From Verrucomicrobiota bacterium JB022 (GTDB lineage Bacteria; Verrucomicrobiota; Verrucomicrobiia; Opitutales; Oceanipulchritudinaceae), in NCBI GenBank assembly GCA_030673845.1, contig JAUTCQ010000013.1:288001-352000 (forward strand): a stretch of 64,000 nucleotides of DNA. The letters are read 5' to 3'. Positions 730-7,098 of this stretch are shown here, piece by piece (the first letter of the stretch is position 1; each line of letters opens with the position of its first letter). The translations under genes were made by a program, and so were the position numbers. Below the pieces are notes generated by a model, which had not been told where the DNA came from, did not search any database, and saw only the letters and a list, made by a program, of their open reading frames with translations.

Positions 730-2013
730 TCACTTCCACTTGCTGCTGATGCCGATGAGTTCGATCTCGATCACGCTGGCACCGGGGGTGGCTTCGACCG
801 GGAAGGCCGTGCGGATGGGCTTGGTTGGGTTGAGCTTCGGGTGGTTGAAGAAGCGCCCGTAGGCCTGATTCCACGCGCCGAACTCGCTCCCGAAGTCCTC
901 CTCGATGTCGAGGTAGGCGCGCAGTTGCACGATGTCGCTGGTGGTGACTCCGGCGACGGTCATGCGGTCGGTCAGGGTCAATAGCGCCCCTGCGCCTTGG
1001 CCGTGGTGGCCTTGTCGGCTGGTATCGACCACGCCGGAGAACCACGTTAGCGCGGCCTCGCGCCCGACCAGAGTCGAGCGGCTGAGGAACGAGGCCTCGT
1101 CGCCTTCGCGCTGGGCCGTGGCGCCCGGGCCGGCTGCGGTTGGCAGAGCGGCGTAGAATTCAATCTCCACCAGCATGCCGTTGGCGTTAAAACCGGGGGC
1201 GGCAAATTCGCTCAAGGCCGGGGCGGGCATGCGGCGCGCGGCCCAATACTCCTTCCAGGCGGCGGCAAAGCCCTCGAAATCCACGGGCTGGGCCGGTGCG
1301 CCTTCTGCGGGCAGCGGCGGGGAAAGCATGGCGCGGGCAAAGACGACATCGCGCGGGGAGGCACCCCAATGGGCGAGCGCTTCGGCCAGCTTGTCCATCG
1401 TCGAAAGGCTCTGTGCCTGCATGTCGCCTAGCTGGCCGTCCTTGCCCGGGCTGGCGAGCATGCCAGAGGTGAGGACCAGCGCGCTGAAGGGCTGCACGGC
1501 GGTCAGGCGCGGCGAAAGATCCACCACGCGGCCATTGGAGAGGCGGGGCGACTGTTGCGGCCACTTGTCGGTCGGGAGGGCGACGACCGCGTCGAAGGCC
1601 ACCTTCGCCTGTGCCTCGGGCAGCTTGGTCACGCCAATGGTGGTGCGGGTGGGCGGGAGGCGGTCGCCCTGGCCAAAGTGCTGGTTGAAGGCCCCGTTCC
1701 ATGCGTTCATCGCCCCTTCCATCTGGCTGTCGGCCGGGTCGACCAGCAGGTAGCCGCGGATGTTGACGACATCCGCGAGGGAGCCGCCCGCCTTCTTCAG
1801 GTCGGCCGCGAGGGCGGCGAAGGCGGCGTCGGCCTGGGCTTCGAGCGTGCGACCGCTCGCAGTATAGGTGCCGGTGAAGATCTTGACCGCTTCAGGGGCG
1901 ACCGTGGCGGAGGCGCTGTAGGGCGCGCCGGAGAGCGGGACGATTTCGGCCACCTGGGCGCTGAGAGGCGTCAGCAAGGTGCAGGCGAGGGTCCAAAGAG
2001 CAGGAATGCGCAT
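730..2013 (-). CDS. Secreted protein with three tandem RidA/YjgF-like domains
   Basis: 427 residues from the ATG at 2013, which starts a signal peptide (MRIPALWTLACTLLTPLSAQ); the open frame extends 18 codons further upstream but those lack signal-peptide character. Three RidA-like repeats follow at about 20-150, 160-295 and 305-427. The RidA Arg that binds the carboxylate of imine substrates is recognisable in repeats 1 (PPTRTTIGV) and 3 (KPIRTAFPV), but repeat 2 has PALSEF there. RidA proteins are normally ~130-residue homotrimers that hydrolyse reactive enamines/imines in the cytoplasm; a secreted single chain with three copies is unusual. Substrate unknown. Confidence 0.8.
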   Translation of the reverse strand: MRIPALWTLACTLLTPLSAQVAEIVPLSGAPYSASATVAPEAVKIFTGTYTASGRTLEAQADAAFAALAADLKKAGGSLADVVNIRGYLLVDPADSQMEGAMNAWNGAFNQHFGQGDRLPPTRTTIGVTKLPEAQAKVAFDAVVALPTDKWPQQSPRLSNGRVVDLSPRLTAVQPFSALVLTSGMLASPGKDGQLGDMQAQSLSTMDKLAEALAHWGASPRDVVFARAMLSPPLPAEGAPAQPVDFEGFAAAWKEYWAARRMPAPALSEFAAPGFNANGMLVEIEFYAALPTAAGPGATAQREGDEASFLSRSTLVGREAALTWFSGVVDTSRQGHHGQGAGALLTLTDRMTVAGVTTSDIVQLRAYLDIEEDFGSEFGAWNQAYGRFFNHPKLNPTKPIRTAFPVEATPGASVIEIELIGISSKWK

Positions 2014-2155
2014 GCCCGGCAGTGAGCAGCTTTTATGCAGGGCGGCGGCGTGGCGCGCGAATGCCAAATATTAAGCATCCTGATACGTGCGGCGTACAGT
2101 TTTGGGCATTTTGCGCCCGCATCGGCCCCCGGCACGTCGGCTGCTGAACTTAGGT

Positions 2156-3349
2156 ATGTCCGTCACACTGGCGCGCCGCCGTTTCCTTCAAACTGCCAGT
2201 CTTGGTCTACTTTCGGGTTACGTTGCTCGCTCTTCACTACAAGCTGCTACAGATAATCACTCGCCGAAACGTTCGGCGGCGCGCCAGTCCCTTTCCTACG
2301 CCCCCATTCGCGCCTCGCGCGACCGGGTGATCAAGACGACGGTAGGCCTGCGGCCCTTCCGCCGCTCCGGCCCCAACCTGAGCGTGGAACCGCTCGGCAA
2401 CAAGACGCTCGTGCACAATTACGGCCACGGCGGCTCCGGGTGGTCGCTCTCCTGGGGCTCCAGCCGCGAAGCGGTCGACAAGGCGCTCGAAGCCGGTCGC
2501 GGCGATGCCGTGGCGGTGATCGGCTGCGGGGCTCTCGGGATGACGTCGGCCCTGCTGCTCCAGCGTGCGGGCAAGAAAGTCACGATCTACACCAAAGACC
2601 GGCACCCCAACATCACCTCCAGCGTCGCCACGGGGGTGTGGTCGCCCGATTCGCGGATCTGCCTCAGCTCCGCCGCACCTGCGGGCTTTGGCGATTGGTG
2701 GGAGAAGACTTGCCGCACCTCTTTCAAGCATTACCAAAACCTGCTGGGCCTGCCCGGGCATCCGGTGGAGTGGGTCGATACGCTGGCCGTCTTCAACCGC
2801 CCGCCCGGTGAGGCCCGCGAAGGCGACGCCCGGGCTGACACGCACGAATTCGCCCACTACTACGACCGTGTGCGCGATTTGACCCCGATGGGCGTCGAAC
2901 TGGCGCCGGGCGATCACCCTTTCTCCGAAAAATACGCGATCCAGGGCACGACGATGATCTACAACATCCCGGCCTACGCGCAGTACCTGCTCGGCGAATT
3001 TACCTCCCTCGGCGGCCGCATCGTGGTCAAGGAATTCCATTCGCCGGAAGAAATGAAGGGGCTGGAAGAGCAGATGATCCTCAACTGCACGGGCCTGGGC
3101 GCGCAGACCTTGTTTGACGACCGCGAGATGGTGCCGGTGCGCGGCCAACTATCGTTCCTCATCCCGCAGGAAGAGGTGCGTTACAACTTTTCCAACGAGA
3201 CGGCCTACACTATCGCCCGTCGCGACGGCATCATCATCGGCGACATGGACAATGGGCGCTACGATTCGACCGACCTTAGCGTCGATCCGGCGCAATCAGA
3301 CAACTCCGTCGACGCTATTGCCGCTTCCATGGCGGCGCGACTCCGGTGA
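2156..3349 (+). CDS. Tat-exported FAD oxidoreductase, D-amino-acid-oxidase family, permuted domain order
   Basis: 397 residues from the ATG at 2156. The twin-arginine signal is RRRFLQTASLG (7-17). The segment that ends ordinary D-amino-acid oxidases, GLRPFR (64-69) and HNYGHGGSGWSLSWG (87-101), comes first here. It is followed by the FAD-binding Rossmann motif VIGCGALG (121-128), which normally opens the protein. The chain then continues through the usual middle (TGVWSP, ILNCTGLGA, VPVRGQ) and ends after GDMDNGRY. So it looks like a circularly permuted DAO fold. It probably oxidises a D-amino acid or similar amine outside the cytoplasmic membrane; substrate not readable. Its 3' end overlaps the opposite-strand exosortase gene by 54 bp. 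Confidence 0.85.
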   Translation: MSVTLARRRFLQTASLGLLSGYVARSSLQAATDNHSPKRSAARQSLSYAPIRASRDRVIKTTVGLRPFRRSGPNLSVEPLGNKTLVHNYGHGGSGWSLSWGSSREAVDKALEAGRGDAVAVIGCGALGMTSALLLQRAGKKVTIYTKDRHPNITSSVATGVWSPDSRICLSSAAPAGFGDWWEKTCRTSFKHYQNLLGLPGHPVEWVDTLAVFNRPPGEAREGDARADTHEFAHYYDRVRDLTPMGVELAPGDHPFSEKYAIQGTTMIYNIPAYAQYLLGEFTSLGGRIVVKEFHSPEEMKGLEEQMILNCTGLGAQTLFDDREMVPVRGQLSFLIPQEEVRYNFSNETAYTIARRDGIIIGDMDNGRYDSTDLSVDPAQSDNSVDAIAASMAARLR

Positions 3350-4258
3350 GGGATCGTAACCCGCCTGCAGCTCTTCGGTCATCGGCTTGGGCTTCTGGTA
3401 GCCGCGGATGAACCACCAGATGAGGACGAGGCAGCCGTAGTAGCAGATCGTGCCCACGATCTCGTGCATCAGGTGGTAGTTGTCCATCCCCACCACCGGC
3501 GCGAGCAGGATGATGATGAAGATGCGAACGAGGTTGAAGACGTAGGCCGCGACGCCCGAGAGCCCGACCAGTAACACGCGGTCGATCCACTTCAGGCGCA
3601 GCACGATCACCAGCAGGGTGCTGAGCAACAGGCTGGCGGTGATCACCCCGAACCCGTTACACTCCGGCGCGACGTGAAAGGGAAAACCGTCTACGCGCAG
3701 CAACAGGATCGGCTCACCCGCCTGTTTGGCCAGTTGCAGCGTCGTGTCTTTGCCGAGCAGGCTCAGCAGCCAACCCGCGCCTTGACCCGCAAACGCCCGC
3801 AGCGGCCAATCGAAGAGCGGCATCAACAGGGCGAGCGTGGCAAACACGGCAAAGGCCGAGAGCAGGCCGCGCCCGATCTGCTCCGACTTGCGGCCAAAGA
3901 TGAAGCGCATCAGCGAACCCGTCAGCGCGATCAAGCCGGGCAAAAGCAACAGCCCGTAGCCCAGCAAGGTCGCGGCCGCCACAAAGCCGAGGGAGATCAC
4001 GAGGCTGACCTGCGCCATGCGGTCGAACTGCAGGGAAGGCCGCCAGCGCCCGCGCCGCTCGGTAATCAGGAGGAAGGCGGCCAGCGCGAGCACCAGAAAC
4101 GCGTGCAGCAACTGGGTATGCGCCTGCGTCTGACGGAACAGCCACGACGCCACCGGCCCATAGGCCAGGCCGGCAAACACATACGCCGCCAGCCCCAGAC
4201 CGGCTTCGCTCCAGTTGACCTTGTTGCTGGGTTGAGGCTTTTGCTGCTCCGCTGCCAT
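3296..4258 (-). CDS. Exosortase (PEP-CTERM protein-sorting protease)
   Basis: A 320-residue integral membrane protein with about eight hydrophobic segments. The exosortase catalytic residues are all present: Cys200 in PECNG, Arg245 in NLVRI and His265 in HLMHEIVG, each at a membrane-segment edge as in the family. Exosortases cleave PEP-CTERM tails on surface and exported proteins, in the manner of sortases. Candidate substrates in this window are at 16581-17177 and 34723-35448. No EpsI-like partner or exopolysaccharide cluster lies beside it. The subclass was not assigned. The C-terminus is soluble and polar and overlaps the convergent oxidase gene. Confidence 0.9.
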   Translation of the reverse strand: MAAEQQKPQPSNKVNWSEAGLGLAAYVFAGLAYGPVASWLFRQTQAHTQLLHAFLVLALAAFLLITERRGRWRPSLQFDRMAQVSLVISLGFVAAATLLGYGLLLLPGLIALTGSLMRFIFGRKSEQIGRGLLSAFAVFATLALLMPLFDWPLRAFAGQGAGWLLSLLGKDTTLQLAKQAGEPILLLRVDGFPFHVAPECNGFGVITASLLLSTLLVIVLRLKWIDRVLLVGLSGVAAYVFNLVRIFIIILLAPVVGMDNYHLMHEIVGTICYYGCLVLIWWFIRGYQKPKPMTEELQAGYDPSPESRRHGSGNSVDGVV

Positions 4259-4555: not shown

Positions 4556-6886
4556 CTAAAAGTTGAAGCGGGCTTCGATCGGGTCGTGGTCCGACGAGCG
4601 CAGGGCCGTGGTGGCGTCGGCTTCGAGGTTGCCCGGCCAGGCGGCATTGACGTGCAGGATGTCCTGGCCGCGCAGGTTATCGAGCAAGGCGGGGCTCACG
4701 ATCATGTAGTCGAGCACCTGGGCGTTGCCGACATACATGTAGGTGTAGCGGTCGTGGGCTGGTACCAGCTCGATCAGGTTCGTCAGCTCCACATCGCCAT
4801 TTGCGCCATCGACCACGATACCGACCGGGTCCTGACCTTCACCCGGCTCAGGGAACCAGAAGTCGTTCAGGTCGCCACCGATCACGATGTTGGCGTCGGC
4901 ATCTGCCGCCAGTAGCTGGTTCACGTAGTCGCGGACCACCTGGGCCTGCAGCTTGCGCTGGGCTTCGGTGCTGCGGACGAAGGGCTGGCCGGTGCCCCAG
5001 AGCGCGCCGTCGCCCCCTTTGGACTTGAAGTGGTTGGCGATCACGGTCACTTGCTCGCCGCCCATCTGGAAGATTCCGACGTAGGGCTCGCGACCGGGGC
5101 TTTCCGACGGCGGGCCAAAGGCGGCTTCCGTCCCCGGCACGATGCTCTCGGTGATGAGGAAAGAGTCGAGCAGGTCGACGGTGTCGTCGTTGTAAAGCAG
5201 GGCGCACTCGATGCCGCGGCCGTCGCTGCTGCCGCCGGAGACGGCGACGTAGTTGGTCCCGGCGAGAGCGTTCACGCGGTCGGCGAGGACTTGGAGGATG
5301 GCGGTGTTCTCGGTCTCCTCGATCGTGATGACGTCGGGCAGTTGCAGCTCCTGGATCAGGGCCAGCGTCAGCTTGGAGAGCTTGGTCTCGAGCTCGGCGG
5401 CGGTGGGGGTGCTGCCTTCGTCGTCTTTGGTGGGGTCGTCGACGAGGTCGAAAAGGTTTTCGACGTTGAAGGTCGCGATCTTGTAGTTCCACGGGCCGGA
5501 GTCGGCGCTGCGGCGGGCGACCGGGCTGGTCGGAATCGGGCGGATCGTCGGGGTGATCGTGTCGTAGATGACCTTGTAGTCGCTGAAGGTGTAGTCCATT
5601 ACGCCCACGAGGTTGCGGATGAAGTCACCGGGCTTGACGTTGATCGTGGTGCGGGCGGCGTCGTCGATCAGGATGCGCTCGGGGTTGTAATCGACGCTGT
5701 CGGGGCCGGTCGGCGTCACCATCAGCACCTTGTGCGTCGGGTTGTAACCAGAGCCGAGGGCCATGTCGGCACGGGTCACGACGGCAAACTCGCCGTAGTT
5801 GTTGGTCGGGCTCACCACGTAGCCGAGGGCGAGGCTCACGCGCATACCTTCGAGCGATTCGTAAAACGCGCCGCCGACATCCATGCTGCTGTTTTCCATG
5901 TCGCTCAGGACGATGGGGGCGGGCAGTGGCTGGGCCTTGTCGAGCACTTCGACACTCGCCGGCTGCTCGGTCTCGGTCAGGTTGTAATACTCGGTGATCT
6001 CGGCCACGATTTCGACGAGGTCGCCCACTTCCACCGCGCTGTTGGTGGAGAGACCGCGGTAGACGTAGAGGCCGTCAGACGTGCTGCTGTCGCCGTCGCC
6101 GACCGGATCCTGCACCCAGAAGTTGTTGCCCGCGATCAGCGTGACGACGCCGGAGAAACGCACCACGTCGCCCACGCGCGGGCTGGTGTAGCCGTTGCCC
6201 TGGATCTGCATGATCGTCACCTCGTCGATTTCAGTCGGCGCGAGCGTCGGGTTTTCGGAGTAAGAGACGCTGGTGGCCGCCGGGTTGGCCGCGCCGGGCG
6301 TATTGGCGGCGAGGTTGGAGAAAGCCACAACCGAGTAACCGCCGTCGGCATTGCGCTGGACGGAGCCGGGGACAAAGGAGCCGTCGGGGCCGATGAAGAG
6401 GTCGCCGTACAGGAATTCGCCCGGCATCCCGGCAAAGAGGCCGATGCTGGAGACAATGCTCGTCCACGGCGTCACATCGAGCATCCCATCGTCATCGGTA
6501 TCGAGGTCCTGACCGTTGGAGCCGGTGAAACCGGAGACGAGTAGGTGGGTGAGGTTGTCGCTGTTCTCGAAGTTGAGGTTGGCCACGAGGTCGGGCGTGC
6601 CGAGCGTGAAGGTGCTTTCGGCCGCCACGAAGTAGCCGCTGGCAGGGATCACCTGACCGGCGAGGGAGGTGACGCTTTCAATCACACCGCTGCCGCCGCT
6701 GCCGTCGCCAATTACGAGGTAGGTCAGGCCATCGAGGCTGGCGCCGGGGGTGCCGGCGAGCTCGAAGAACTCGTCGTCGTCGGTGCTGTTCTGGTCGATG
6801 CGCAGTTCGCTGATCACGGCCTGGCCGTGGAGCGGGGCGGCCAGTGCGGCCAACGCCAGCAGGCGGAGAGAGGAGAGGTGCTGCAT
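4556..6886 (-). CDS. Secreted endonuclease/exonuclease/phosphatase-family nuclease with lamin-tail domain
   Basis: 776 residues from the ATG at 6886, which begins a signal peptide (MQHLSSLRLLALAALAAPLHG). Order: lamin-tail-like domain (ISELRIDQN...DDEFFELAG, ~22-200), an OB-like region (~225-450), then an EEP nuclease/phosphatase domain (~480-776). EEP motifs include IATFNVENLFD, VITIEETEN, ANHFKSKGGD, IGGDLNDF and the terminal SSDHDPI. This resembles ExeM/NucH-type extracellular nucleases, which degrade environmental DNA for nutrients or biofilm turnover. The frame extends 37 codons upstream, but the signal peptide fixes the start. It is transcribed alone, divergent from the cupin gene. Confidence 0.88.
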   Translation of the reverse strand: MQHLSSLRLLALAALAAPLHGQAVISELRIDQNSTDDDEFFELAGTPGASLDGLTYLVIGDGSGGSGVIESVTSLAGQVIPASGYFVAAESTFTLGTPDLVANLNFENSDNLTHLLVSGFTGSNGQDLDTDDDGMLDVTPWTSIVSSIGLFAGMPGEFLYGDLFIGPDGSFVPGSVQRNADGGYSVVAFSNLAANTPGAANPAATSVSYSENPTLAPTEIDEVTIMQIQGNGYTSPRVGDVVRFSGVVTLIAGNNFWVQDPVGDGDSSTSDGLYVYRGLSTNSAVEVGDLVEIVAEITEYYNLTETEQPASVEVLDKAQPLPAPIVLSDMENSSMDVGGAFYESLEGMRVSLALGYVVSPTNNYGEFAVVTRADMALGSGYNPTHKVLMVTPTGPDSVDYNPERILIDDAARTTINVKPGDFIRNLVGVMDYTFSDYKVIYDTITPTIRPIPTSPVARRSADSGPWNYKIATFNVENLFDLVDDPTKDDEGSTPTAAELETKLSKLTLALIQELQLPDVITIEETENTAILQVLADRVNALAGTNYVAVSGGSSDGRGIECALLYNDDTVDLLDSFLITESIVPGTEAAFGPPSESPGREPYVGIFQMGGEQVTVIANHFKSKGGDGALWGTGQPFVRSTEAQRKLQAQVVRDYVNQLLAADADANIVIGGDLNDFWFPEPGEGQDPVGIVVDGANGDVELTNLIELVPAHDRYTYMYVGNAQVLDYMIVSPALLDNLRGQDILHVNAAWPGNLEADATTALRSSDHDPIEARFNF

Positions 6887-7098
6887 GGGCAAGAGATAGG
6901 GCTGAGTTTGAATTTTCGACCCCCGAGTGAGAGAGATGGGGCCGGTACCGCCGGGCAACGGGCGGAGCGTGTCCGTTTTCTCATATCCTTGCGGCAAGGG
7001 TTTCGCGAACGGGTAAAGTTTAGGTGAACTACCTTCACGTTTTCGAAAGATAGATTAGGTTGTGAGGCGCCCTGTAATTCGTTTAACTGGTAGTCCTT

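Follow-up and report, generated by a model that had tools for sequence, protein, structure and literature searches.

We describe here a gene whose product, designated P0001, is on the evidence of its sequence a circularly permuted variant of the D-amino-acid oxidase (DAO) branch of flavoenzymes rather than a standard member of it. The gene lies in the window, by which we mean the whole 64,000-nucleotide stretch of Verrucomicrobiota bacterium JB022 DNA that was analyzed. The segment that closes a classical DAO chain opens the enzyme part of P0001, behind a Tat-type signal, and the FAD-binding Rossmann segment follows it. We consider it likely that P0001 is exported by the Tat pathway and acts outside the cytoplasm to oxidize D-amino acids or amino carboxylates like them and that, in this lineage, a Rid protein encoded next door aids it in doing so.

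The features of the gene and of its divergent neighbor are listed in the table below. An in-frame GTG codon at position 2087 offers an alternative start that would add 23 residues; however, we prefer the ATG at position 2156, because a relative from the same genus (L013; 76% identical to P0001; N-terminus MSAMLARRRF) begins at the same place. In the translation, RRRFLQ is found at residues 7 to 12, GLRPFR at residues 64 to 69, HNYGHGGSGWSLSWG at residues 87 to 101, and VIGCGALG at residues 121 to 128, and hence the two DAO tail motifs stand ahead of the Rossmann motif, as the first-pass annotation of this DNA had read it. In the classical linear order, the Rossmann segment comes first and the HNYGHGG segment comes last; in P0001, this order is rotated.

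Features of the permuted DAO gene and its divergent neighbor (positions are those of the window)
Feature	Position	Strand	Basis or remark
427-aa single chain of the 3x-Rid type, with three Ribonuc_L-PSP (Rid) stretches	730..2013	-	PF01042; Sec-type signal by eye; divergent from the DAO gene
Circularly permuted DAO-type flavoenzyme P0001, 397 aa	2156..3349	+	ATG start
Tat-type signal, residues 1-31 (ARRRFLQTASLGLLSGYVARSSLQA), without lipobox; end of signal guessed	2156..2248	+	Sequence; R7 and R8 invariant in alignment A1
Former DAO C-terminal segment, now N-terminal; residues 56-107 = human DAO 273-327	2321..2476	+	Sequence alignment
R66, equivalent of human DAO Arg283 (substrate-carboxylate binding)	2351..2353	+	41/41 permuted, 18/18 canonical
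HNYGHGG motif at residues 87-93, its last Gly (G93) matching human Gly313 by position within the motif	2414..2434	+	
Residues 108-117, joint from old C-terminal helix to first Rossmann strand	2477..2506	+	Model: helix 99-113, strand 118-122
Main body, residues 117-394 = DAO 1-269; Rossmann GxGxxG at 123-128	2504..3337	+	Superposition and Pfam

The claim that a circular permutation is visible in the primary sequence is now backed by profile alignments, a rotation scan, homologues with the same order, and a tree. The Pfam DAO profile (PF01266) matched P0001 with 100.6 bits against a curated cutoff of 27.9 and did so in two stretches, the best of which aligned residues 119 to 390 with profile positions 2 to 295 of 353. 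In a six-frame search of the organism's own genome, profile positions 289 to 352 were matched at G000:C13:290276-290479, upstream of the body at 290510-291337 and in the same frame, with a score of 25.1 bits that by itself is below the cutoff. In phmmer searches against PDB sequences, residues 118 to 333 of P0001 aligned with the N-terminal part of 7ct4_A, and residues 58 to 113 aligned with its C-terminal part (positions 320 to 375; i-Evalue, 1.4e-7). Residues 56 to 107 aligned with positions 273 to 327 of 2du8_A, and altogether, residues 51 to 113 matched the C-terminal regions of several DAOs and D-aspartate oxidases (7ct4, 2du8, 6rkf, and 9vpf), the tail pieces matched to 1c0i being weak when taken alone (i-Evalues, 48 and 9.4). 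A profile search of the PDB returned 26 sequences past 1e-6, with 6rkf_A as the best (3.8e-45). Judged by the stretches that matched, a permuted order was not apparent in any of 17 DAO-type PDB sequences, each of which had its body match near the chain start or its tail match near the chain end.

For the rotation scan, P0001 was opened at every fourth residue (residues 46 to 397) and each rotated chain was aligned locally with 11 canonical bacterial DAOs, chosen from 17, and scored. For all 11 of them, residue 114 or 118 was the best place to open the chain (with ties at 110 to 114), and for one (L045), the score was 343 for the rotated chain versus 252 for the unrotated one. Searched in rotated form, P0001 aligned with 7ct4_A in a single stretch (residues 6 to 351 versus 26 to 374), and both this search and phmmer with the native chain place the N-terminal motif at the DAO C-terminus. 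Rotation improved the E-value for 1c0i from 3.1e-15 to 3.3e-17, while the values for the others barely moved and that for 9vpf became slightly worse.

An AlphaFold2 model of P0001, built with 12 alignment rows, reached a pLDDT of 81.4 and a pTM of 0.81; residues 1 to 45 fell below a pLDDT of 50, and ten-residue blocks between residues 51 and 110 averaged about 85 to 96. With VIA-align, the main body superimposed on mammalian DAO and DDO with Z scores of 21.1 to 22.3 and rmsd values of 2.2 to 2.4 over 243 to 252 residues, the Z scores being 21.1 to 21.4 for mammalian DAO and 22.3 for human D-aspartate oxidase. VIA-align is a sequential aligner and left residues 46 to 113 unplaced in three dimensions. 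Since the body ends at human DAO residue 269 and the N-terminal piece begins at residue 273, the cut lies at about residues 270 to 272. By sequence and model, then, complementary segments are rotated, the new termini lie at a loop, and the old termini are joined, which is how a natural permutation is recognized. The DAO chain would have been opened in the loop that runs from about human residue 269 to about residue 273, with some ten residues coming to link the old C-terminal helix to the first Rossmann strand.

The same matches could also be read without any permutation, as a small separate N-terminal domain that resembles the DAO tail, fused to a DAO-like domain lacking a tail of its own, and it is true that both Pfam and phmmer match the two pieces as separate stretches. 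However, the pieces are complementary in human DAO numbering, the DAO-site residues of both are conserved together, and none of the 41 permuted proteins that we collected has the tail motif twice. Furthermore, residues 46 to 113 folded alone were poorly predicted (pLDDT, 53.6; pTM, 0.34), and because the same piece is predicted well within the full chain, it does not look like an independent domain. The same contrast lends indirect support to the view that the moved segment may occupy the equivalent place in the three-dimensional fold. We rejected the separate-domain reading after this fold and regard it as very improbable.

The first-pass annotation mentioned similar Tat-type oxidoreductases in other genomes, and the order is indeed shared: we found 40 further genes with the same segment order. 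After duplicates from overlapping samples had been removed, the collection comprised 41 permuted and 18 canonical proteins, the permuted genes coming from Pseudomonadota, Bacteroidota, Actinomycetota, and the window genome's own phylum. Dropped before counting were four duplicates (L017 to L020, equal to L003, L007, L006, and L002, respectively), L058 (Rossmann part not found in frame), L022 and L024 (tail motif not found), and L041 (an in-frame TAG, with the tail motif out of frame). None of the 59 proteins carries the tail motif at both ends, as an intermediate would. A pattern search of contigs gave 56 matching stretches, of which 11 encode a relative, all permuted: one from Novosphingobium, three from Dyadobacter, one from a Woeseiaceae MAG, four from Alteromonas, and one each from Paraglaciecola and Pseudoalteromonas. 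Within the window's phylum, 5 of 194 genomes had a match (four permuted and one canonical, L016); within its family, 5 of 17 did, and the three classified there were all permuted (G793 and G800 were left out). In the phylum of Novosphingobium, at least 20 of 398 genomes have a match (E <= 1e-12), a lower bound because four candidates were scored per genome; 19 of these are permuted with all three segments, and one carries an in-frame TAG. For the phylum of Dyadobacter, 26 of 198 genomes matched, and the 20 classified comprise 3 permuted (G195, G784, and G738), 16 canonical, and 1 partial. Nine plasmid records matched as well; of the six classified, those from Niveispirillum, Kozakia, Rhizobium, Bradyrhizobium, and Nonomuraea are permuted and that from Tsukamurella is canonical.

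A few single loci are of note. The permuted-type match in L041 (G407:C7:147743-148798) has one in-frame TAG, so that either the gene is damaged or the sequence contains an error. The Woeseiaceae MAG (G196) has two permuted genes, L006 and L021. L057, from the phylum of Dyadobacter, is a 461-amino-acid frame (847-2232, minus strand) that is very divergent, with an end branch of 2.97, and that retains both the permuted order and a signal resembling that of a Tat lipoprotein.

The distribution of the two orders can be explained by one event. Our careful tree held 60 rows, namely, the rotated permuted sequences, the canonical ones, and two DadA-like outgroup rows (L023 and a second frame of L095), with L057 left out for its long branch. 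In it, the 40 permuted rows form one clade nested among canonical DAOs (support, 97/89), the canonical proteins L060 to L062 are sister to this clade (joint branch, 100/98), and a single change of state suffices in 97% of 200 bootstrap trees. For the proteins sampled here, the classical order is ancestral, and a single permutation is enough. A repeated origin might be suspected from the deep split between the main Tat-type subclade and a subclade of five mostly non-Tat proteins and from the extreme divergence of L057, which is absent from the careful tree. Yet a quick tree that includes L057 places all 41 permuted proteins in one clade (support, 91), and every permuted protein has the tail segment first and the body last, so that we judge more than one origin to be unlikely.

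The presence of a Tat signal, likewise proposed on the first pass, is borne out by comparison with the relatives. P0001 has an RR motif followed by an uncharged stretch, and its genome contains a TatC gene; the export itself is a prediction. A signal of this type ahead of the enzyme was seen in 37 of the 41 permuted proteins versus none of the 18 canonical ones, and in 26 of the 37, a rough pattern, which overlooks some cases, also picked up a lipobox-like Cys. In one protein (L015), the scan took a second RR, and the actual N-terminus, MAMNRRRSLSLALG, was read by eye. The four permuted proteins without a Tat signal (L042, L092, L093, and L096) form one subclade together with the Tat-type L043. 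Two limits apply to this contrast: since in 17 of the 18 canonical proteins the Rossmann segment is preceded by no more than 10 residues (by 78 in L059, which shows no RR signal), it is a contrast with proteins that have no N-terminal extension at all, and since the permuted genes form one clade, the count reflects a few evolutionary events and not 37. The canonical set consists of the weaker matches of permuted queries, and exported canonical DAOs may exist outside the sample.

The residues that define the DAO active site are largely retained. In human DAO, according to PMC6279847, the substrate carboxylate is bound by Arg283 and Tyr228 and the amine is bound by Gly313. The equivalents of Arg283 and Gly313 in P0001, R66 and G93, are invariant in all 59 proteins, as are Y89, G90, H91, and G92, and the GxGxxG glycines (G123, G125, and G128) are present in every permuted and every canonical protein. 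The Tyr228 equivalent, Y351 in P0001, is Tyr in all 18 canonical proteins versus 25 of the 41 permuted ones, and hence substrate or chemistry may differ across the permuted family. The fold, the FAD site, and the substrate-carboxylate-binding Arg are thus probably retained in P0001, and the conserved residues support an amino-carboxylate substrate for it, with some divergence elsewhere in the family. P0001 fell far short of the NCBIfam models for glycine oxidase ThiO (TIGR02352; 34 versus a cutoff of 250.8) and for D-amino acid dehydrogenase (NF001933; 29.9 versus 383).

Compared with the DAOs of known structure (human/pig 2du8/1kif, 1c0i, and Rasamsonia 7ct4), P0001 has all of their segments, the FAD Rossmann motif, a motif of the HNYGHGG type, and the equivalents of Arg283, Tyr228, and Gly313, and it superimposes on them with Z scores of 19.8 to 21.4 over residues of about 112 to 397. 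The identity in the superposed part is 20 to 21% (26% for 1c0k). P0001 differs from them in its order, rotated by about 270 residues, and in its Tat-type signal. The top superposition was with the D-aspartate oxidase chain 6rkf_B (Z score, 22.3; rmsd, 2.3; 252 residues), the next rows being within 1 of it; unlike P0001, 6rkf and 9vpf keep the classical order. The same is true of the canonical bacterial proteins L060 to L062, from the phylum of Dyadobacter, and L016, from the window's class, which share the motifs of P0001 but have no Tat-type signal.

The gene that diverges from that of P0001 encodes the three-domain Rid protein listed above. By eye, its middle domain seems to be without the Arg seen in domains 1 and 3, at a position that we take to be the catalytic place. 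The divergent arrangement of a three-domain Rid gene and a permuted DAO gene recurs in two further genomes of the window's family (G134 and G158), and in one genome from the phylum of Dyadobacter (G784), a single-domain Rid gene, its product having a signal by eye, occupies the same divergent position. Altogether, a gene for a putatively exported Rid protein (imine deaminase type) divergently adjoins the permuted DAO gene in 4 of 29 genomes, three of them from the window's family, and a Rid gene is not directly beside it in the other 25. Three genomes (G417, G272, and G546) have a Rid gene 5 to 12 kb away, and none was found within that distance on the same contig in the other 22 of the 29. 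By similarity to the window's Rid protein, such a gene was seen at 4 of 40 loci of relatives (L063, L064, L077, and L085), in the stretch covered at each. A pairing of DAO with Rid is plausible, though restricted to few lineages. The 3x-RidA proteins described in PMC4433059 likewise have three Rid stretches in one chain; the Sec-type signal seen by eye and the seemingly Arg-less middle domain set the window's protein apart from them. Rid2 and Rid3, and not RidA or Rid1, deaminate the iminoarginine formed by D-arginine dehydrogenase (PMC5619798). A second multi-Rid frame is present elsewhere in the window's genome, at G000:C17:293132-294310.

For 40 loci, we also clustered the open reading frames lying up to 4.5 kb from the gene. 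As a guide to function, a conserved neighborhood was discarded, as only small sets of three or four loci recur. They include the Rid gene at three loci of the window's family, joined by L085 only under a looser threshold; a gene for a TPP-dependent enzyme at L092, L093, and L096; an hslU-like gene at four loci, recognized by eye and probably a housekeeping site; and sets common to close relatives in Alteromonas. In Rhizobium, Bradyrhizobium, and Nonomuraea (L093 3488-7714, L096 3363-7690, and L092 around 5857-7020), it is a non-Tat permuted DAO gene that adjoins the TPP-dependent enzyme gene, preceded in L093 and L096 by a gene for an FAD-binding oxidoreductase; these sets perhaps represent a cytoplasmic pathway. 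In Kozakia (L095 4869-6529), a cytochrome c gene comes after the permuted one, an arrangement that would suit a dehydrogenase better than an oxidase.

The activity, substrate, and electron acceptor given here for P0001 are predictions, and another reaction on the permuted DAO fold is a possibility that we take seriously without favoring it. P0001 might be a periplasmic dehydrogenase that passes electrons to a quinone or a cytochrome, or it might be an oxidase acting on a different amine, such as an opine, an iminodiacid, or a modified amino acid. The cytochrome c gene beside the Kozakia member, the TPP-enzyme gene beside the non-Tat relatives, and the 16 of 41 permuted proteins in which the Tyr228 equivalent is not Tyr would all suit such a change of chemistry. 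On the other hand, P0001 itself keeps all three DAO active-site equivalents, the closest solved proteins are D-amino-acid and D-aspartate oxidases, and a Rid neighbor fits an imine product. We therefore prefer to think of P0001 as a probable D-amino-acid oxidase. In this scheme, the preprotein would fold around FAD in the cytoplasm and then be exported by Tat; outside the cytoplasm, it would turn D-amino acids or related amino carboxylates into imines, and the exported three-domain Rid protein would, in this lineage, speed imine hydrolysis to keto acid and ammonia.

Natural circular permutations are a known type of change. In the titles and abstract openings of the open-licence literature, searched for circular permutation together with D-amino acid oxidase, glycine oxidase, flavoproteins, or twin-arginine and for DAO together with twin-arginine, a permuted or Tat-exported DAO was not found, which hints that the permuted DAO order is new. 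Hits bear only the name FAD-dependent oxidoreductase, and annotation that pays no attention to the order of segments conceals the permutation. DAO is a textbook flavoenzyme, and its natural permutation, apparently of single origin and spread across several phyla, amounts to a natural experiment in which the effects of new termini on folding, FAD loading, and export can be studied; for biotechnology, it supplies a DAO scaffold whose free N-terminus lies close to DAO residue 270. It also points to extracytoplasmic D-amino-acid oxidation in marine, plant-associated, and other bacteria. A bolder proposal, which we put forward only tentatively and think rather doubtful as a whole, is that one ancient permutation moved the DAO N-terminus from the first Rossmann strand to the loop near residue 270 and so let a Tat signal, often of the lipoprotein type, attach to a folded, FAD-loaded oxidase. 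The result would be an unreported module for extracytoplasmic D-amino-acid oxidation, accompanied in some lineages by an exported Rid imine deaminase, here three in one.

A role in defense was also considered and set aside, the PADLOC matches being weak only and lying mostly within residues 85 to 149. On the downstream side, an Exosortase_EpsH gene (3296-4258, minus strand) meets the permuted DAO gene tail to tail, its end overlapping the final 54 bases of the latter.
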